From Stropharia rugosoannulata (lineage: Eukaryota; Basidiomycota; Agaricomycetes; Agaricales; Strophariaceae): a stretch of 64,000 nucleotides of DNA. The position numbers and the translations under genes are program-made. The DNA lies in assembly GCA_028532985.1 (NCBI GenBank), contig JANCIK010000001.1, forward strand, positions 4,154,001 through 4,218,000, given 5' to 3'. Position 1 is the stretch's first letter. The number at the start of each line of letters is the position of its first letter. Under the pieces are notes generated by a model, which made no database searches, was not told where the DNA came from, and saw only the letters and a list, made by a program, of their open reading frames with translations. Shown piece after piece: positions 5,167 through 43,874 of this stretch.

Positions 5167-8100
5167 CTACATCGAAAGACTATCGACTAACTGCGCCATT
5201 GCCTCTGACTCGCCTTCCACAATATCTATATCCTCCCACAAATCGGCATCATCTTGTTCTGCACCCTGGGCAGCTGTTCGCACTAAAGGATCAAGACAGA
5301 ATAGCCATGGAGGATCAGGTACCTCGGAGTCTATGCCGTCTGGACCTGCCTCCCTTCCTACACGTGTACCAAACTCTAAGCGTCCTGTAAAACCTTCTAA
5401 GCAGCTTGTTTGATAGAGTCTTTTTGCTAGTTTACGGCTGACGTCGTTGCAGTGATTGTGCTCCCTTGAAAGTTCTGCGGCAAGATATGGATCTTCGAGT
5501 GTCGTACGTTTTATTGCAAGGCTGTAATCAATGTGCTCGTCACGCATGAATGTGAGGAGCCGTACAATTTCTACGTTCAATCGGTCGATCTCTTCATGGG
5601 CTCGTTTGATCCCAAAGTATAAATTCATAGCTTCCCGACGGGGGCCGTCTGCCCACGCCTTAGATGTGATCTGGCCTCGAGAGTCGCGGAGTAAATCGAA
5701 ATCTGCGACGGCTGCTGCCTGCATGACACTTGCCCAGGTAAGCAACGGTTTAGGGGGCGAAAGAAGTACCGCCGCTTCGTTGTACTTCTTGAGTGCTGTA
5801 GCGATAGCGTTCGAGCGCTGCTTCAATGAGCGCCCGATCTTGTCACGTAAACGATAGCCTGAACATTTGTCAAAGTAAGTAAGAAGTTAATAGATCATTA
5901 AATCTTAAAAGTGCTGCACTCACCGACACCACTCATACCAAGCTTCGTCATCTCAAAAAGTCTCTGTACAACAAGGCGCTCGAGCTCATCAAGTGCACGC
6001 CGAAAAGTGCGCTCTGATAATAACAGCTCTGCATCTTTGTACTGCTGCATCCCGGAGGTCCATCGTTCTTCAATCAAGTGCGCAGATTCAAATTCACACA
6101 CAACAGTATTACACGCTTCCCAGAGCGAGTAAGTCGTTGTATATCGTGTTCGGACCTTACTGATTTCCTTTCTAGTGTAACCGTTGTGAATGATGTTGAA
6201 ATCGAGCATCTCATAGTCTGTTTTAGCGGACATGGAATCGTAGCTGTTTGAAATAATGGTCTTCAAATCTTACTCTCCTTGTCAAGATCAATGAAACGAC
6301 GTACTGTAGACGATCCAGCTTCTTGAGAAGGGCAAGATACTCCACTGCCACCTGCACTTCATCGGGCTCTCTCTGCAGCGATTTTAGATAAGTCTGTTCT
6401 TCCTGTATGTAGCGCTCGCAGTCCGCATTCGTTATGTTGAGCTCAACGGAAAGCTTCGCCAGCAATGCACCATCTATTTTTATCTTCTCGAGAGCCTGTC
6501 GATAGTTCTGAAAGATGAAGTTAGCTACGACGAGATGTTATTAGATAGATGCATATTAATACAAATTAAATTGAATTACTTACCTGATGCCTCATGCTTA
6601 TCTTCATCAATAAACGACCAGTGCTCTTCGATTTCCTGCTGACGATGGAATGGCGTGGCGAGACGTGTGACTGACGCAAGCTCGTTTGATTTCTGGAATG
6701 TGCGCTCACACGTTTCGAAGTCCTCAAGACCCGGACCTTCCATATATAGTGGATGCCAGTGAACCTGACAAAGTCGATTATGCGCATGCCCATGGAAGGC
6801 TGGCACAACGCCGTTGAGATTGAGGTCGACGACTTCGTCTTTAAGGCTGCTATTGAGAAGTGTCTTCATAAAAGCGCACATAATGTCGTAGCCTAGGCCA
6901 ATATTCCGTCCGTAGCGATCAAGCAGTGCTTTAGTGATACTAATTGGATATTTCATACTAAGCAAGATCTCCGAATCAGCTTACATAGATCTGGGGGAAG
7001 TATATAGAAATGGGCTTACAGCTCACCGCTCCAGATCATGTCGCACACTAGAAGAACGTGGCCATGTCGACATACGGCAACAAAAACACCAGCCTTGGCA
7101 AAGAGAGCGAACATCTTCTTCCTTGCTTCAGGACTTGCACTTTTCCACCGCTCGACACACACATTGGGATTAGAAACCTCTTCTTCATTCTCTGTTGCGT
7201 TCAAGAATGCGTATGTTTCGGGGTCAATAGGATTGTCTTGTGCTGGTGATGATGATGAGTTTTCCGGAGCCGATTGTGCCGTGTTTGAGGCAGGAGTTGG
7301 AAGTGGATGTGGGGCAGAGGTCTAAAAATAATGTTAACATACGGAATTATGGAGAAATGAAGGTTTACATACACTTTGACTTGTCACAGCATTTGCCAAC
7401 CGGGGTCGTAATGTTCGCTTGACTTCATCCTTGTATACATCGACTTCCTCCGGTGAGAGCCAACGATATGAGAGAATGGAACGATCATCGTCGCGAGGAG
7501 AACCTGCCTTGAAGCTCGAGTCAACCAGTTTAAGTGAATTATTTCCATCCATTGCAACTAGCATTGAAAACTTGAGGTTGCGCTCATCTTTTGTGTGATA
7601 CATACACGGTGCACAGATGTTGGATTGCTCCCAGGTTTTATCACGTTTCAAAGCTTTTTGGCGGCATCGCTTAATTTCTCGCAAGATCTCTAGGTAGCAG
7701 TCATATGCACATGAGAACTGCTCAGCGTAATGATGTTTGAATGTGCACTAAATTCAACGGAGATACATGAGCACAGGGCAGTTGATTAAAAATGAAAAAA
7801 TGAACTGACACCATGAAGGAAAGATAATGCTTTAGTCATACTATAAACACTTAGACGAGGGCAGACTCGATGCATCTGGCGGAATATTTCCAAAAGGACT
7901 AAAGAAAATGCTACGGCTGGGCGTTCTGGAGAAGCTCCCAGGTATCCATTCAGCACCAGAGTTTCGTTGACAGTTGAAGACGACGATGAGTGAAAAAATT
8001 TCATACTGGAGCGTTCTGTAACGCGGGCTTGGTGACTTTGTACATACAACTTGAGCAAGCTACGGACATACCTGTGATTGAATGTGTTTCAACCTCCCAA

Positions 8101-10953: not shown

Positions 10954-13013
10954 CTACAAGTACATGGTTAGAATTTGTAGACCGTGGAATTCTAAATCTT
11001 GTTTCGGGACCGTAATTTTATCGGGTTCTTTTTTGTCAGGATCTCGAGAAGAGAACACTGTAAAAACGGGAATGCGACGTGGAGAGCTTAATGACTGGAT
11101 GTGTAGATGCTCAGAGGACTTAACCTGACCTGGAATGCTGCTCTCGGAGTACAGTGGAATGGAAAGACAGGAATTGATGAGTAGGACCTCATTTCCCGTT
11201 ATGGCAAAGTTGACGACTCCAAAGAATATCATTTCTGGAAGACTTGCATGGTTGCGTGTCTGGGCAGATGAAGGTGGACGCTTCTCGGAGAAGAGGCGCG
11301 AGTCTAATAGATTATAGCCGTAAGCTTCCCCATATAGAAAGCCCTTTGCCTTGAAGCCATGGTCGGAAGTAGTTATATAGAGGCCGGGAATCAGAAGGAG
11401 GGGTACCCGCAGCTCTATGTGCGTCAATAAGAGTGGTTCAACAGGGACTGAGTAATCCAACTTGGATCGTATTTCATCGGGAGAAGAAATGTCGAAGCGT
11501 TCGGAGCGAACACGATACGCCTTGACAGTGTTCGGGAGGACACTGTCATAAGAGAATTCGTAAGAATGATTAAAGATGTCAAGAACATGCCGCTTTGTTT
11601 TGACGATCTCGCGCATTAGACGAGTAAATGCATGCTCCGCACCTTCACCATATGCGGTTGCAATGCTGACATCGAGGAGCCCCATGAGAGAGTATGCACT
11701 GTCCTCCTCCCGGGTGACCTTTCTATGGCTAGCCATCTGTAATCTTCTAGATATTGGAATCGACTTGGGTGATCCTTGCCTGAAAAGCCTCATTTCCTCC
11801 GGGGTTATCCATGCGGCTTCGGCGACCTTGTCGTGAAGCTCGTGGGAGGCCATGCTGTTCCATCTCTTGTTGTATACTTCGATCCTCCGGGGCGCCACAA
11901 GTTCCTGCAGTGTCCAGCCACGAGTAAACCAGGAGTCTAAGAGTACGTGTTCCAGATCATTGGTCTCCGACAGATATATGACGCATTCAGCAGCATTGCG
12001 GTACCATGTGTACATGGACCGGATGGCCTCGTCCAGCTCAGAGCTACTCTCCTTGTTAATGCAGCACGTGTCGATCCAGCCCAAAAAACGCCCGTATTTC
12101 TGAGCAGAAACTCTGCAGAAGTTCCGAATTTTAAAGTTTTTTTCAAGGTTTTCTTGTTTCCGCACTCCGTCCTGGAATGTAACTTCGTGTGATGTCCATG
12201 TGTGTGATAGAATACTGTACCCGGTATGCTCCTCGATAAAATCGTCAATAATTTTGTCTTCTTCCACGAGACCCGCCAACAGGTTGTATTGTCGCTCAGA
12301 GCTAATGAAATCTAGCTTTGCTTGAAGTTCTTGACTATTTTCAGCAGCAGCAAGTACTTCGACCTCTAGATGATTGACTGCTTGCCAGTTGTCAACAATG
12401 CGAACCTGACCTCCGGCTGAGTTAAATGCAAGTAGTCTCGTTGGGATTTTGATCATAGTCTTGTGGATCTTTTGCAATATCTTGTCTTGAACTGCGGCTT
12501 TTACCACACCTATTAGCCACCACGGGTAAAACAATGCATGAGTGAGACGTACGATTTAACGTTCTAATACTCTCAGCACATTCGTGGTTCACATTGGATT
12601 GACAGCGGACCAGATCCTCTGAGATAGGCGCATTCGAAGCACGCAGATTGGACGACCTCAGTGTCGTCTTTTGACAAGAATCAACGATATCCTCTATAAA
12701 TGCCTTCAGGCTGTAAACAAGTTTATGCTCCATTGACCCTTCGCAAGTCCAAAGGCCTAAATTATGTAAGTATTATTGTCGTATCTGTTCTTTCATTCTG
12801 TACTCTTACTCTGTGGTTCGAGCTCTGAGTCACGTATGGTATCGGCTGTCACGGTAAAGCAGTCAGCATTCTCCATGTCACCCTATTAGACGAAGCTGGC
12901 CGAGACTTACTTGAGGACATACATTCATATACAATCGGCTTCACAAAATCCGCAAGAGTGGAAAGCAGGCCCCGAGCCTGGGGAGTGTCCAATTCCCCTA
13001 ACACAGACGGCAT
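10954..13013 (-). CDS. HET (heterokaryon incompatibility) domain protein, 626 aa
   Basis: Four exons, 13013-12911, 12845-12810, 12756-12553 and 12491-10954, join in frame to 626 aa. An alternative acceptor at 12510 would add six residues. The start ATG at 13011-13013 is supported because the first exon (RGLLSTLADFVKPIV) aligns with the start of the second HET protein at 41.6 kb. The HET signature is clear: YSILSHTW, then GWIDTCCINKESSSELDEAI with SMYTWYRNA, then WFTRGWTLQELVAPRRIEVY, and a downstream EEDSAYSLMGLLDVSI...YGEGAEHAF block. HET domains have a TIR-like fold and trigger programmed cell death on non-self fusion in fungi. The C-terminal 250 residues are poorly characterised and end in LQILTMYL, as in the paralogue. 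No NACHT, WD40 or ankyrin region is present. Confidence 0.93.
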
Positions 13014-19637: not shown

Positions 19638-20680
19638 AACACCAATTTGACACCAATGAAGGGATTATCACATGTTAAAGCTAAAGTCTATTCCCACGCC
19701 GGTCTCTTGCCTTCAAATGTTGTAGACAACTCAAAGACAACTTGTAGAATAATTTAATTTGAATCCTGTGTTATAATGACTTGGAATATATATTATTGAT
19801 CTTTACATGACACAATATCTCTTCGCATAAGTGGCACACTTCTTTACTCTTGAGTCCTTACTTCCTACTTTAACTACTGTCTAATGGGCGGCGATGTATT
19901 ATGCCGGGCATAGGGCATCCCAGGAAGCTGAAGAAGGCTTGTAAGTACAGATCAGAGTATAATTGCATGTGTACTTACCAGGAGGATCCATAGTGGCGAC
20001 ACTGTTGGCGTCTTCTGCAAAAACAAAGGATAATCCACTATACTCTAGGTGACATCATAGCACTTTATCTTAGTTTGCTGTATTTTGGAATATATTTGTT
20101 TGTCTATTAGTAACGAACCATAAAGTTAAAAACGTTAAGCTACGTTAAGGCAGCGCATAGTATGATATTACGCGGAGCGCCGAAGAACTTTGAGATATAC
20201 GGTCAGTCAATTGGGGCGCGTGTCGTTGTTGCATCAACGCATGCAAGGCGCACTGTGATTAACTGATGGTACTTTTCTCATTGATAACCTCCCAGGCTCA
20301 GGCTCTGTAGGGTGAAAACCGACTACACCATCAGATGGCAGACAGTCCACGGAAGAAGTGCGAGGCTCCGTGCGCATGATCTTTCTTCACAACTCCTTGG
20401 GAAGACTCCATCGTTTTGCATATGGCCTGGAACAAATGATTTTATATTATGCATTTCCAATATGTGTGTATCCAGCTGTTGCGGGCCGTCGTGGATACAC
20501 ATCACAAATTAAGGAAGAAGATTGGGAGGACGACGCCGGCGCGTCTAACAAAGAGATAGAACTATTCAGAAGAGGGGGCAGTTTTGATTGTCGAAAAGCA
20601 TATGAAGCACCTTCTGTAATGACAGGACGGTAGGGTTTATGCGTCGCATACAAGATCACATGGGGAGCAAAGCCTGACAA
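19638..20680. other. Intergenic
   Basis: Upstream region of the PrpF-like gene and 3' flank of the broken CoA-transferase copy. It is AT-rich, with only short frames and no recognised motif. CGTTAAG-type words recur near 20130. Confidence 0.45.
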
Positions 20681-21590
20681 CTAGGCAATAACACCATCCG
20701 CGCGAAGTGTCCCTATTTCTGCCTCAGAGAGCCCCAGATCTTCCTTTAGCACCGCTTCAGTGTAAGCACCCAGCTCTGGGCCCGCCCATGCCGGCTGTGA
20801 ATCAACACCATCCAAGACGGGGAATGTTCCTTGCATTTTCACGGTCCAATCACCCACCGGTACGTCTACGAGCGCTCCCCGCTTGGCATTCTGCTCATTT
20901 TCGACCACCTCTTTGATAGACTGCACACGGCCCACCGGCACTCCGGCGGCATCCATCACCTGAACGACCTCGTCTGCTGTGTGGGTGCGTGTCCAGGATG
21001 AAATTGCACCCTCGATCTCGACCTGCGCAGCGACGCGTTGCGGATTGTGAGCGTAAGCGGGGCCGATGAGGTCTGTTCGCCCAATAGCAGTCATGAGGCG
21101 CACGTAGATAGCGTCCCCGTTACCGCCAATGACAACATACTCTGATGGAGCGCTTGACGTGGATGTATCTTGACCATATCGGGTATTTAGGCAGTAGGGG
21201 GTGGGAGATTATCTGAGGTGAAACATACAAGTTTACACACCGTTCGACAATACTGACATCAACTGACCTTCCTTTAGACCGTCCTACGGTCCCGCCTGGC
21301 GCTAGCGCGCGAGTACTGTATCAAAGGCGGCATGTAATCCAACAAGGGAATTACCCGAACTACTTGTATTCGGACAGAGACAGACAGGTGTCCCCGCAGA
21401 CACCCAGTGCATTGATCGGTACCCATTAATGTAGCGGAAGGGCAGGATGTGCAGAAGGCAGACCCAAAAGAGCAGTGGCACATGCTCGAGGTCACCCAAA
21501 AAAATAGAATTTGAGTCGTTTCCTTGCGAGGTATAGACAGTTATGTAAACCAATCCCACAGTTTTAATACATGACTGTATGGGAAACATT
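20681..21590 (-). pseudogene. Broken CaiB/BaiF CoA-transferase copy
   Basis: The last exon (20681 to about 21165, ending LRADGVIA) is almost identical to the last exon of the intact gene at 26078; the shared 140 aa differ at only about two positions. Further 5' the likeness drops sharply. FRYINGY, then AGTPVCLCPNTSSSGNSLVG and LHAAFDTV, are recognisable counterparts of the intact FRYINGHPDPETGRLAG and LHAAFGTV. The RQRQ...GRTVDVSIVER region is present but interrupted by a frameshift and a stop near 21270-21300. The exon encoding MLNLMEGIIPEYDRKEK is missing, and the first three exons, including the CoA-binding N terminus, are absent. It cannot encode a working enzyme. It lies in direct orientation 5.4 kb from the intact copy. 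Confidence 0.88.
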
Positions 21591-22861: not shown

Positions 22862-24378
22862 GCATACATGCAACCACATCATCTATAATTGTCTATAATA
22901 TCTGATATGGTCTTCGATTTAGGTAATTGTAGGTGGTCTGCTTGGGAATACAAGTTTCTTCTTGGGTGGGCCAGTTGCCTTCTAAACATTCATAGTATGC
23001 AGTCAGTGAAATTGCATTCCCACGCGTTTGATAGTAGCTTGTTCACGGATGCGCATCAGTTTGGGGTCCATATTACAGATGTAGTAGGATATGATATATA
23101 AGTGATCCAGTTGCAATGCAATTTACTATGCAATGCATAATTTGATGTTTGAGAGCACTGTCTTTTACACGCAGTCGAGAAGGATTATTGCTGACCAGTG
23201 CACCGATTTTAGGGGCAGTACCGCCGTATTAGTGACGATTTCAACTTGAAGTTGGTAACTGGTTAAATATGTGCAAAAATCCGTACGTGTTCAATTTATA
23301 AATTAGTGGAGATAAGTCAATTTAAAGTGAATTTTCTGGCGGATATTGTACTATGACTATGAGATTATGAATGAAAGCTGCCTCTAGTTCACCCTTTTAT
23401 TATTTTGCAAAATAGGCAACAAGACTTACTCGTGGGAAAAAACATAGTAGTATTAGTAGAATACGGTTGATACACTGCTAACTGCGACGTTTCTAACAGC
23501 TATTTCGTGGACATCTATTCCTTGGGGAGCGCGCCAGTATCTCTCATTAACCCAAGCTGAAGAAAAATCCTGATCAGGATACGAAGACGCGGGCTCCCGC
23601 CGGCATGGTCATATGTCCTGGATGCGGGTAAAAATTCAATTGATGCGGAATTGCAAGTCACAAGAAAAAGTGTTTGTCCATTAGAGAGCGCATTCAGAGG
23701 GAGAGTGCGAACAGATTACACGCTTTGGCCGAAACCTACCTTGCCGAACTGCGGGGCCAAGTATGACTTATAAAGCCGCTGCTGACTGATTCGGCTTGTG
23801 TCTGGGCAAGCTAGATAGTGAGAATGAGTATCCTGAAATTGAACTCAGACTCCTCTAACTGGATAGTTGTTGTATACTTACAGTAGTGTGCCGGTGGGAT
23901 ACTGTACCATGCAAGAAACATATTCCACAGGGCGCAAGGAAGCTAACAATGTATCAGTACATTGTTTCAGAACAGCCCAAGAACAACCCAAAAACAGCCC
24001 AATGATGTAGTACTATGTGAGAGCCTGAGATACTTTACAAAGTAGCTCCTCATACACATATTAGCGTCGGTGGGAGAAATATGGGACGACGCTTACGTAT
24101 AAGCTATAGAATTGCATCCGTACACCAGTATTTCAATCCCTACCTTTGACTTGCCAATCACGTTGTTTATATTATTGAGACGAGAAGGCACACCGCATTG
24201 GACAATCCTTTGCCTAGACCGTCATTATTTTTTTTTCACAATTAAAACAGCATAAATACTGAGCTGTATCTCAAATTGAAGCCTACCAGACTCACCATCA
24301 ATCCGAATAACGGTGATAGTCCGTCTACCTGCTTATCTAGCTGCTGATTCTCTGATATACTACGTATAAAAATAGAGA
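22862..24378. other. Intergenic, AT-rich
   Basis: No gene is supported. A short repeat of AACAGCCCAA lies at about 23971-24003. A run of T occurs at 24228. A possible tRNA at 23820-23905 was examined and rejected. Confidence 0.45.
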
Positions 24379-24398
24379 ATGAGTCACCGGTGACTCAT
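24379..24398. promoter_or_regulatory. Perfect 20-bp palindrome with two AP-1/Gcn4-type sites
   Basis: ATGAGTCACCGGTGACTCAT is its own reverse complement. It contains TGAGTCA and TGACTCA, the two half-orientations of the bZIP (Gcn4/AP-1) site, spaced around CCGG. It lies immediately upstream of the avidin-like coding remnant. Binding is inferred from the word alone. Confidence 0.5.
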
Positions 24399-24412
24399 TC
24401 AATCACGCCCAG

Positions 24413-24840
24413 CTCGCCGGAATTTGGTACAACCAAGTCGGCTCTAGGTTGACCTTCCAGAAGCGGACGGCACTCTGACTGGAGAATTTTACTCACGTAT
24501 TGGACAAGCGTATGAATCCTACCCTCTTTCGGGAAGGTTCAACATTAGGACACGAAACAGAGGAGTACCCATGGGGTGGGCCGTGTCTTTTCAGCAGTCG
24601 AACTCCACAACTACCTGGAGCGCCCAGTACTTCAGCGGTGAAGAGGAACGTATACTCGCACACTGGGTAATGGCACTGAGTGTTGAGCCAGACCAGCTCT
24701 GGCAGTCGACCCATTTAGGAACCGCTGTATTTTCTCGCAGGGAACCCACCCCAGCTGCTCTCGAAGCAGCGTCAAAGGTTACCTTCGATGTTACACACCT
24801 GGAGGGAGTCCTTGGCGAATACGCTGCAAGAAACAAGTAA
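24413..24840 (+). pseudogene. Fungal avidin-like (biotin-binding family) gene remnant
   Basis: The conceptual product follows the avidin/streptavidin/tamavidin family from end to end. It reads LAGIWYNQVGSRLTF, then after a one-base shift DGTLTGEFYSRIGQAYESYP, LSGRFNI, GWAVSFQQSNSTTTWSAQYF, ILAHWVMALS, LWQSTHLGTAVFSR and an extended tail to the TAA at 24838-24840. The biotin-contact positions N..GS, Y, TTW, HW and LW are present. The usual Asp of the 'VGxDxF' strand (Asp128 in streptavidin numbering) is Ala here (LGTAVF). Codons before about 24465 are in a different frame from those after it, with one base missing, and no splice pair explains this. No ATG precedes LAGIWYN in frame after a TGA at about 24378. 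It is either a pseudogene, an assembly error, or has an unseen upstream exon. Confidence 0.75.
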
Positions 24841-26077
24841 TTGGATCGTTGGACAATGGGAAGATGTATTGGATAAGTAGCATGAATATATACGTGACAT
24901 TTAACGAAAGAAATAACTCATAAACTAAGCTGTCAGCGTTTCTCGTTATTGAACTTTTACTCCACCGTCTTGCTTCGAAACATAATACCGCTTCAAGGGC
25001 TTTGATCGCGACAAACTGGGTTTCTTTCCCTCATATATAGTTTTGTCCAGAGGTTGATCTATGCAAGCCTTGGAAGATTTGTATTTCTTCTTCCCGCATC
25101 CTGGATAGCGATGAAGAAGTGAGCTGAGGTGGAATGATTAGCAGGAAGGACAGATTCTCACAGACTGGGACCAAATCAATGTCGTGTGCGTGATCCGGGG
25201 CGCATTGGAGTGCCTAAAGTAAAAGGGGTATAGTCGACGTTTTAAGTGATAATGCAGAGGCCTGGAAGACGACCAGAACAGATCTGAGCAAGACGGCTGG
25301 GACCCGTAAGGGACTGCCTGATTCAAGAAGTGCATATGTACACATGCACGGGGAACATTGAACAGGGACAGCAGTATGCGCTCGGAGGCTCTGCTAACAG
25401 CAGACTATTTAGAATGGGCGGGGTGACCTATACATATGATCGGAGGTGACTGGGGATAAGGACAGAGTCGGCCTAACAAATGTGCTTGCAAGTGTCACCA
25501 AAGACCGATAGAGACCATATGCATAAACAGTCGAGCGAAAGGCGAAACAAGTGGGCAAGAACTTGAGAGGGGATCAGCGAAGACGTGGGAAGGAAAGACA
25601 CAAGAAGGGGCCTGCTGGGACACTGGGCGGGTGCATGATGTAAGCAGGACCCTACAACAACTACCATATTTAGACATTCCCCCTAACGCCCACAACTTAT
25701 CCTCGAGATCATTCAGCCATACAATACTTAGATAACATAGACACAGGCACTTATAAAGACATTCCTAACATCTGGTATTCGGGATGAGCATGCTGAATAC
25801 CACGTGAGTAGTAGCTATACATACCACGCATTCATAGAAGACACTCCCTGCCGCGGACGAGGACTGGGTACTGCACAGAAGCATCTCTAATCTTACATGC
25901 ATTTCAAATAATCTCTGCTCCGCCATTCGCAATGCTTGTGCAATTAATGAGGCAAAGTCAAAGTAGAATTCAAATTTAGGAATAGACACGCCAATTGGAC
26001 GTGGTTTCTGGAAATGACAAGACGACGGGGTTTACGCGAAGTTATATACAAGCCAGATGCAGAGCTATGTCTAACAA
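24841..26077. other. Intergenic
   Basis: 3' flanks of the avidin-like remnant (+) and of the intact CoA-transferase (-). Short frames on both strands have no motif. I see no RNA gene. Confidence 0.45.
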
Positions 26078-27816
26078 CTAAGCAATAACACCATCCGCGC
26101 GAAGTGTCCCTATTTCTGCCTCAGAGAGCCCCAGATCTTCCTTTAGCACCGCTTCAGTGTGAGCACCCAGCTCTGGACCCGCCCATGCTGGCTGTGAATC
26201 AACACCATCCAAGACGGGGAACGTTCCTTGCATTTTCACGGTCCAATCACCCACCGGTACGTCTACGAGCGCTCCCCGCTTGGCATTCTGCTCATTTTCG
26301 ACCACCTCTTTGATAGACTGCACACGGCCCACCGGCACTCCAGCAGCATCCATCACCTGAACGACCTCGTCTGCCGTGTGGGTGCGTGTCCAGGATGAAA
26401 TTGCACCCTCGATCTCGACCTGCGCAGCGACGCGTTGCGGATTGTGAGCGTAAGCGGGGCCGATGAGGTCTGTTCGCCCAATAGCAGTCATGAGGCGCGC
26501 GTAGATAGCGTCCCCGTTACCGCCAATGACAACATACTCTGATGGAACGCTCGTCATGGAGAGGCAGGGATATGCATTTGTGGGTACAATCCCAGTCACT
26601 GAGGAGCCAGAGGGTCCGCGTATCTTGATCATTTCAGATCTTTAGATTGTGCTGAACGTATAGCATTTACCTTTTCTTTTCTGTCGTACTCTGGTATGAT
26701 ACCTTCCATTAGGTTTAACATGCTAATAGGAGGGTAAGAGACTGTTTGGAGGGAAACATAACAGTTTACACACCTTTCAACGATGCTGACATCGACTGTT
26801 CTTCCTTCAAACTGTCCTGGGGTGCGGTCTGCCTGGCGCTGGCGCGCGAGCAGGGCTAGGACCTGTATAATCAATACATATCTTGGTCGATGTTGGATCA
26901 GACCTACTGTTCCGAAGGCGGCATGTAATCCAGCAACGGAATCACCCAAACTAATATTCGGGCGCACAGGTGCCCCCGCTAGACGCCCGGTTTCTGGGTC
27001 CGGGTGTCCATTAATGTAGCGAAAGCCAGCCTCTGCCTCACAGACGGATGCATACCCCGGGCGGTGAGCCCAGGGACCCGTTTGTCCGTATCCGCTCACA
27101 CGTGTAAATATCAGGGATGGATGTAATGGATGTAGATCTGTGGGTCCCAGAGACCACTTTTCAAGGGCTGGCGAGGTCGGTAAAGAATATATGACAGGAG
27201 AGAAACTTTACTCACTGCCTGGCTTGAAGTTCTCCAGAAGGACATCACTTTTTAGGGCCAATTTCTTGACAAGACTATGCATTTACCGTTCATGGATCAG
27301 AGAGTTGTTCCTTCACTGTTACAGAGAAATGGTTACACTCGGCCCTCTGGCTTACGCAAGTCAATTACCACACTTTTCTTGTTTCGAGCTATACTGCGAA
27401 ACCAGGGGCTCGTGCCGTCCACGTCGAGTTCACGCCAGACACGTAGAGGATCACCAATACGGGGAGGTTCAACTTTGATAACTTCGGCCCCGAACTGCCT
27501 AGATAAACTATAGTGATTAGGTCTTTGATCTGGAAAGCCGTGAGCTCTGGATATATGATCACCCTAGGAGTTGACCAGCAAATGGTCCTGCTATGAGTTG
27601 CCCTAGTTCCAACACACGCACTCCACTTAAAGGCAGACTACCGTCTGTGCCAAGATCATGGCCTGTCGACTGAGGGTGGATATTGCGTGATAGCAGTCTA
27701 TTTCGGAGAATAATGTTGATTGAGTCGAATCTAAAGATCTTCGAAAACGGATGAGACAATACACACTTCAATGAGCGCTGCGTAGCGCGATAAGTTAACA
27801 CTTTCAATGTCGACAT
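26078..27816 (-). CDS. CaiB/BaiF class III CoA-transferase (SUGCT-like), predicted mitochondrial, 473 aa
   Basis: Seven exons (27816-27563, 27498-27337, 27274-27216, 27167-26908, 26862-26774, 26722-26671, 26623-26078) join without a break to 473 aa. An Arg/Ser-rich N terminus suggests mitochondrial import. The class III hallmarks follow: LPLSGVRVLELGQLIAGPFA, FGAEVIKVEPP, GDPLRVWRELD, RNKKSVVIDLR, SDVLLENFKPGTLEKW, TRVSGYGQTGP, GYASVCEAEAGF with RYINGHPD, GDSVAGLHAAFGT, VDVSIVE, and IVPTNAYPC with EYVVIGGNGDAIYARLM. The enzyme swaps CoA between carboxylic acids. The nearest characterised group is mitochondrial succinyl-CoA:glutarate/itaconate-type CoA-transferase. The fifth intron (26907-26863) is 45 nt and stop-free in frame. 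A broken copy lies 5 kb downstream, and a PrpF-type isomerase beyond it. Confidence 0.93.
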
Positions 27817-41587: not shown

Positions 41588-43874
41588 ATGACGAAAGACC
41601 CCAGTAAGTTCACCCTTGCAAGTCTATCAGGTAGTCTGAAGGTATTGACTTACCTTTCATAACTGTTCTAATCAGCACAGAAGGCGGTCCTACCGCCTTT
41701 TGTAGATGCTCAGCGACTGTTAGACGTCCTAGTGAGCTTTGTGCAGCCCATTATCAACTCCTATTTTGACCCATCTAGTGAGCACCGTTTCTTTTGCAAT
41801 TACAGTGCAGCCTTATCTGAATTCAATGTAGGCGATGTCAGTACTTTTAGCATGACAAAGGATCACCCCAGTAAAGGGCAAGATCTTCTCAAGGAATTGG
41901 AAGGGTTGGTGATTGGATGCATACGCTCGAGTTTACCTCAAGAATCGGCACCAGAGCTAGGGCAGCTCGCACAAGATGGTTCGGATGTGGCATATTCAGG
42001 CGACCTGCAAGCGGACCCGATCGATGATCCATGTGGGTATTCTTAGCATGTATGCTCACTTTCACTGTCGCTTTTCTGAATGACCTTCAGATGACATCGA
42101 TACCGATCTTTTTCAGAACAAATTTTCTGCTGGGAACTACGCCGTCATGACGGTTAAATCGCATCCTGACAGTGAGTACCGATGACGCTCGCTACAAAGT
42201 ATATTGTCAACGCCGGAAACAGTATGGCCCAGTACTGTTTTTAAATCCATGACATTCGAAGCCCTCCGTATCCAAGTCTTCAATAACATGCCAATCAGGA
42301 TGCTCTCCTTCGATTCTTCTGGCTCAAACATTACCTTAGTTGACCGATTTGCACTACTTGGGCGGTTTATGGGCACTATTCTCGCTCAAGCTCAGCAACC
42401 GGAATTCGAATCTCAATGGTCCAAAACGTTGACAACGGCCGCGCGCGGATATGAATTTGCGCAGGAAGCGACAAATAAGCAAAAGGTCATGATTGATGAA
42501 CTGGTCCACGAACATACTAGATATGCTATTTTATCTCATACCTGGATGCGGGAAACACCTGGGGAGGTCACCTTGCCGGACTGGGACAACGCACCTGAGA
42601 CGAAGCCCCGTGGATATGCTAAAGTCGCCCGGTTCTGCGAGGTTGCTGCTAAGGAACATGGCCTGACGATTGGATGGGTTGATAACGTGTGTATCGACAA
42701 GCACAGCAGTAGCGAACTGGACGAATCTATCAGATCTATGTATAAATGGTACCGCGAAGCTCATATATGCATAGCATACCTAGCCGGTTCTCGGTTTTTG
42801 GAGGATGTTCCGTTGGATCCTTGGTTCACTCGTGGATGGACCCTACAGGAATTACTCGCACCCAAGTACATCCGATTCTACGGCCAAGCATGGGAAGAAC
42901 TCGTTTACGGTAACAAGGATCTTATTGTAGCTCCTACTCTTTCCAGTGGCATATCATCCGCAACCTCGATTACAGAAACTGAACTGGAACATTGCAGGCG
43001 CGGGAACATGGATAGAATTCCTATCTCTAGGATGCTGCAACTAGCCTCTAGGAGGGAAGTAACGCGGGAAGAGGATGCGGCCTACTCACTTATGGGCTTG
43101 CTTTCAGTCGACATATCCGTGGCTTACGGGGAAGGGGCCGAACGCGCTTTCTTCCGTCTCGTTCGAGAGCTCCTCAACACCAGAAAACACGTACTTGATA
43201 TCTTCAACCGCGGGTATGGAAGGACCTACGACAAATCTCCAAATCAATATCTACTTCCAACAAGTATCCGACAGTATTATATGGGTCGCTCGGCACTATT
43301 TGACGTGTCTGATGGGGAGATATCCTCACTGCTTGATACCTGGCTTCCCTCTGAGCCTGTAATTTTCACCCATTTGGGCGTACGAGTGCCACTTATTCTT
43401 TGCCCCGCCTTCAAGGTCGAGGAGAAGGACATGCCGGTGGATATCCATAGCAAGAATTACTCATGTTACGGAGACTACTACGGTGTCGTACCTCTGTACT
43501 TCGACTACGGAGAGACCACATCATATCACGCGTATAACCTCATGGACTCCCGCATCTGGAGCAAAAGTGTTCTTTCTTCCCATCGCTCCGGTACAAACGA
43601 TAGGTCCTCAGAATATTCGCCGCAAGCCATCACATTTGGCATCATGAACTTCAGCAAGGACGACGACAACATCGTCATTCCCGAAAACTGTCTTTCTGTT
43701 GTTTTGAACTGCAGGGATAATCCGGTCAATGTACACCAGTCCGACCCCATCAGCATCCTTCCTGTGAAGAAGGCGCCGGTTATTCAAATCAAGTCAAGCA
43801 AGAATAAAGACTTGATAGTACCGATTCACAAGCTGCAGAAGCATGGAATGCAATTGATGACATTGTATCTGTAG
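41588..43874 (+). CDS. HET domain protein, second paralogue, 701 aa
   Basis: Exons 41588-41603, 41676-42032, 42091-42171 and 42223-43874 join in frame to 701 aa. The start is the ATG at 41588-41590 in a 16-nt first exon. The N-terminal domain (RLLDVLVSFVQPIINSYFDP) matches that of the HET gene at 11 kb. The HET core is YAILSHTWMRETPG, GWVDNVCIDKHSSSELDESI with SMYKWYREAHICIAYL, WFTRGWTLQELLAPKYIRFY, REEDAAYSLMGLLSVDISVA and YGEGAERAF. The tail ends MQLMTLYL. It is longer than the paralogue mainly because of extra sequence in the N-terminal region (42.0-42.2 kb) and a tail insertion near 43430-43520. The role is inferred from the family: non-self recognition and cell death after hyphal fusion. 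The 16-nt first exon is easily missed. Confidence 0.93.

Follow-up and report, generated by a model that had tools for sequence, protein, structure and literature searches.

A diverged avidin gene copy in Stropharia rugosoannulata is probably a pseudogene broken at its start and after its first strand

We analyzed a window of 64,000 nt of contig JANCIK010000001.1 from Stropharia rugosoannulata (all coordinates are window positions) and found in it an avidin gene copy that is probably a pseudogene. Its parent would be a paralogue, by now diverged, within the tamavidin-type avidins of fungi, and its loss seems an ordinary event for a member of a gene family. The copy evolved fast and lost Tyr43 and Asp128, two residues that contact the ureido group of biotin in streptavidin, and its translation would be cut off by a broken start and by a frame change after the first strand, so that probably no product is made from it. 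This reading draws on direct observations, namely the homology, both breaks, the substitutions, the paralogues and the long branch of the copy. The coding frame is disabled while intact relatives remain in the genome. Among the explanations offered by the original prediction, which had been made from the DNA letters, a recently lost avidin-like gene is the best supported.

The region 23400-25800 was examined in all frames. Two open frames on the forward strand carry the avidin domain between them. The first (24383-24478, hereafter the N-piece) contains strand 1 (GIWYNQVGS), its homologous part spanning about 24389-24457. The second (24448-24840, the C-piece) is an open frame of 130 codons that holds the rest of the domain and a C-terminal tail and closes with a TAA at 24838-24840. 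When compared with the Pfam Avidin family (PF01382, gathering cut-off 24 bits), the C-piece (24448-24837) covered positions 21-116 of the 116 in the profile with a score of 57.7 bits (E 1.9e-15), and the N-piece (24383-24475) covered positions 1-19 with 14.6 bits (E 0.043), collinear with the C-piece. Both pieces were also collinear with two intact paralogues in the same genome. In the PDB, the C-piece matched 140 distinct sequences at E 0.001 or better, and the matches to tamavidin 2 and streptavidin run along its length. These matches are far beyond chance, and the avidin homology that had been proposed across two frames is confirmed. At the DNA level, 24250-24900 matched the genome at its own place only.

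To place this copy within its family, we searched the genome with the Avidin profile. Seven matches were obtained, corresponding to six copies (two matches fall in the copy named C3a). Two copies, C8 (222 aa) and C3b (172 aa), are intact with complete frames, and four, including the window copy, are damaged. C3a shows two frame changes, C3c (whose first strand was read by eye) has two whose effects on the frame cancel out, and C3d breaks off at about residue 60, the 10 kb taken containing no more of it. Four of the copies lie within about 37 kb on C3, only one of them undisturbed in frame, and the window copy was the only one that the profile search found on C1. A single open frame from the start to the last strand is present in the two intact paralogues and absent from the window copy with its two breaks. 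The intact copies probably act as tamavidins do, by taking up biotin. Having both intact copies (two) and damaged ones (four), the genome shows a fungal avidin family in turnover. The finding itself is ordinary.

Relatives were collected with a three-row profile (C3b, C8 and the C-piece), which retrieved 120 proteins at E 0.001 among 4252 candidates; a protein search with the C-piece alone gave 12 candidates, none significant. The relatives were named under Mycena, Gymnopilus, Galerina, Cyclocybe, Agrocybe, Hypholoma, Lentinula, Favolaschia, Cylindrobasidium and Pterulicium, and also came from many metagenome contigs, some actinobacteria, Chloroflexota and a mussel. With so many mushroom genera, and six copies in this genome alone, the earlier remark that fungal avidins are rare is not supported. 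Two metagenome proteins, P0001 and P0002 (337 and 339 aa), are over double the usual length and perhaps contain tandem avidin domains; they were left out before alignment, leaving 118 database relatives. At its C-terminus, the C8 avidin (5499-6164, reverse strand, of its extracted locus) carries a tail of about 80 residues, most of which do not align with the other two rows of the profile.

In the window copy, the frame changes after the codon for Ser27 (24443) and before that for the loop Gly (24469), within 24443-24471 on the forward strand. The pieces abut, since the strand-1 Phe codon ends at 24457 and the Pro codon of the other frame starts at 24457. The spacing from Ser27 to the loop Gly was measured in 122 rows (the 118 database relatives and four copies of the same genome), five of which were gapped there. 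Of the remaining 117 rows, 97 have a spacing of 10 residues (30 nt), 6 have one of 9 and 14 have one of 8, 11, 12 or 17, compared with 26 nt in the window copy. A frame change is present as originally predicted, but the one missing base that had been placed near 24465 is the smallest of several readings: the net difference from most relatives is minus 4 nt, which has the same effect on the frame as minus 1.

The original prediction had also considered a diverged member with an unusual gene structure. Such a gene could be living if a further exon upstream, or the splicing out of an intron, circumvented the breaks. A CAG, a possible splice acceptor, does end at 24412 in the strand-1 frame, and the two frames could be joined by any of 21 GT/GC-AG pairs of 30-150 nt, counted with donors confined to the strand-1 frame. 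However, each of these 21 introns would cut into strand 1 or into the hairpin of strands 1 and 2, residues that run uninterrupted in C8, C3b, C3a and C3d, and introns within the two pieces were rejected for this reason. The pieces already abut, and introns from exons upstream of 24383 would leave the second break unmended. It is therefore very improbable that splicing rescues a living gene here.

With regard to the start, a TGA at 24380-24382 lies directly upstream in the strand-1 frame, and no ATG occurs between it and the first strand. The nearest ATG (24379-24393 with its short frame, forward strand) is in a frame different from that of strand 1 and meets a TGA at 24391-24393 after four codons. 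The claim that no start codon is visible was thus correct for the strand-1 frame. This out-of-frame ATG is covered by a perfect 24-bp palindrome at 24377-24400 (GAATGAGTCACCGGTGACTCATTC), the sole perfect palindrome of at least 16 bp within the window. Its 18-bp core matches the genome at a single site when up to two mismatches are allowed. The palindrome contains TGAGTCA and TGACTCA back to back, which resemble AP-1/Gcn4 sites.

One mechanism that could be suggested for the broken start, as part of the pseudogene reading and not as an alternative to it, is template switching from one arm to the other of an originally imperfect palindrome, which would have left the perfect one. By chance, 64 kb would hold about 0.004 perfect palindromes of 24 bp (64000/4^12), the only one lies on the start, its right arm shares letters with the paralogue C3d, and such mutations have been described in yeast. 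However, the palindrome was noticed after the fact, about three of this kind are expected by chance in 48 Mb, and the state before the event was found in no allele or orthologue. We consider this mechanism possible but rather doubtful.

The window copy is strongly diverged. Identity of the C-piece is 31% with C8 and 39% with C3b, and it does not exceed 43% with any of the database relatives. Two trees were built, the first with 115 rows (rows shorter than 120 aa were left out) and the second with 100 rows, from which 15 far or long-branched rows had further been removed. In the 100-row tree no end branch was longer than that of the window copy (2.11 vs a median of 0.2, the next long one being 0.83), and in the 115-row tree it was second only to P0120 (1.87). 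Few columns and a long branch kept both trees from placing the window copy: no starred set includes it, and the five rows of this genome form no one group (four changes). We therefore regard the copy as an old paralogue or a separate arrival rather than a fresh duplicate. In the tree, C3c pairs with P0055, an undisturbed metagenome protein.

How long the frame was maintained was approached by simulation of neutral decay. When sequences decayed to 42% identity, 130 codons remained free of stops in 16 of 1000 runs starting from C8 and in 34 of 1000 starting from C3b, and therefore the frame of the window copy was most likely kept for most of its divergence. On the other hand, six of 27 strongly conserved columns are changed in this copy, compared with a median of 0 in 111 relatives, and the 6 of the 111 that depart at as many columns all fall within the eight lowest-scoring hits; constraint therefore appeared to have relaxed. 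By another count, the consensus was kept at 23 of 31 conserved columns vs 20 of 82 elsewhere. Our reading is one of partly relaxed constraint followed by a recent break, and we infer that the breaks came late.

Tyr43 and Asp128 hydrogen-bond the ureido head of biotin in streptavidin, whose numbering is used for the 17 biotin-contact sites tabulated. At position 128, the window copy has Ala, as had been predicted; among 115 database relatives with a residue there, 104 keep Asp, 6 have Asn, and Ala, Glu, Ser, Gly and Val occur once each. A second changed contact, absent from the original prediction, is Phe at position 43, where 113 of 115 relatives have Tyr and 2 have Phe. All other copies of the same genome that reach these sites retain Asp128 (4/4) and Tyr43 (5/5), including C8 and C3b, which share the family with the window copy and differ from it in their complete frames and in sequence. 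Ten of the 17 sites are as in streptavidin (Asn23, Ser27, Ser45, Gly48, Trp75, Ser88, Thr90, Trp92, Trp108 and Trp120), whereas seven are changed (Leu25Val, Tyr43Phe, Val47Ile, Asn49Gln, Trp79Phe, Leu110Met and Asp128Ala). Among relatives with a residue at the column in question, Val25 was seen in 0 of 113, Ile47 in 0 of 115 and Met110 in 6 of 116; Phe79 was seen in 37 of 118 relatives.

Ala at position 128 is not by itself a mark of decay. The fungal-type metagenome protein P0059 (161 aa) begins with Met, spans the whole domain in frame and has Ala at the place of Asp128, and it would signal that natural avidins with Asp128Ala persist. According to PMC4888747, earlier calorimetry gave a loss of 4.4 kcal/mol for D128A of streptavidin, and PMC8033661 describes avidins as diverse and binding as lower where hydrogen-bonding residues are swapped for small hydrophobic ones. 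A literature search on Y43F with streptavidin and biotin gave no match. The locus might encode, or have encoded until very recently, a fast-evolving avidin with a remodelled ureido pocket (Tyr43Phe and Asp128Ala) and weaker or different ligand binding, which we judge unlikely. If the pocket changes preceded the breaks, the window copy and P0059 would point to natural avidins with altered binding, which would be useful for the study of tight biotin binding.

A related explanation is that errors of assembly or base calling broke a living gene, so that the avidin encoded here would be active and evolving fast, its biotin pocket changed. In its favor, 130 codons are free of stops despite the longest end branch of the 100-row tree, a hairpin-forming palindrome lies at one break, and the damaged copies, where read, show frame changes and truncation and no lone stop codon. 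However, two separate errors would be needed, neither of them in a homopolymer (neither break sits in a run of more than two equal bases), and the long frames of the PrpF gene and of two HET genes in the window are open, as are those of C8 and C3b. As a control, HSP70 and TCP1 family searches of the same genome gave 27 and 33 matched pieces. Among neighboring pieces at most 400 nt apart, 39 of 40 junctions had an intron-sized excess of 49-166 nt, the exception being an overlapping pair with 7; this measure is blind to frame changes inside a matched piece. The avidin pieces showed no excess DNA (minus 7 by the junction measure, minus 4 by alignment column). An error of this kind seems an improbable source of the breaks, and we infer that they exist in the living organism.

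It should be noted that several observations weigh against a pseudogene. The N-piece alone stays under the Pfam cut-off, and the open C-piece is equally compatible with a gene that is still living and with one that broke recently. In the simulations, frames that had decayed to 80% identity were still free of stops in 213 (from C8) and 270 (from C3b) of 1000 runs, and the 23 of 31 conserved columns are a weak departure from neutrality (P 0.025 when starting from a median relative, 0.037 from C8 and 0.41 from C3b). In addition, the assembled sequence is that of one strain only, and assembly errors could account for the breaks. Supporting a pseudogene are the two separate breaks and the damage to C3a, C3c and C3d as well, and it remains the probable state of the window copy.

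Fungal avidins bind biotin very tightly, which presumably deprives animals or microbes that feed on the fungus of this vitamin. Among the closest known counterparts of the window copy are tamavidin 1 and 2 of Pleurotus cornucopiae, which belong to the same Pfam family; tamavidin 2 was the third-best PDB match of the C-piece (E 3e-23), behind two engineered tandem streptavidins. The window copy differs from the tamavidins in its two frame breaks and in the changes of Tyr43 to Phe and Asp128 to Ala, and from streptavidin also in the lack of a complete frame. In PMC6238071, tamavidin 1 is described as a tetramer that cut two fungus-feeding nematodes to less than 4% of control in named cocultures, an effect thought to depend on the uptake of free biotin. 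Literature searches combining tamavidin with pseudogene matched only work titled on interferon-induced membrane proteins, those combining avidin, Basidiomycota and gene family matched only chimerolectin work, and the matches for lentiavidin, judged by titles, included none on fungal genomes.

Several other features were observed in the window. Two gene copies of CoA-transferase family III flank the avidin remnant (20657-20956 and 26054-26353); one stretch of 300 nt is 95% identical between them and two stretches further on are 75% and 86% identical, which gene conversion might explain. A HET (heterokaryon incompatibility) domain is encoded in each of two long open frames, at 10954-12555 (reverse strand) and 42186-43874 (forward strand), and pieces of a KDZ transposase lie at 6576-7747 (reverse strand). 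For the PrpF gene, a search that scored the 7999 candidates sharing most words gave 357 matches. The 120 best of these were 48-55% identical, as would suit an agaricomycete that lacks near kin in that database, and the best named ones were mushrooms such as Crucibulum, Agrocybe, Hypsizygus and Psilocybe.
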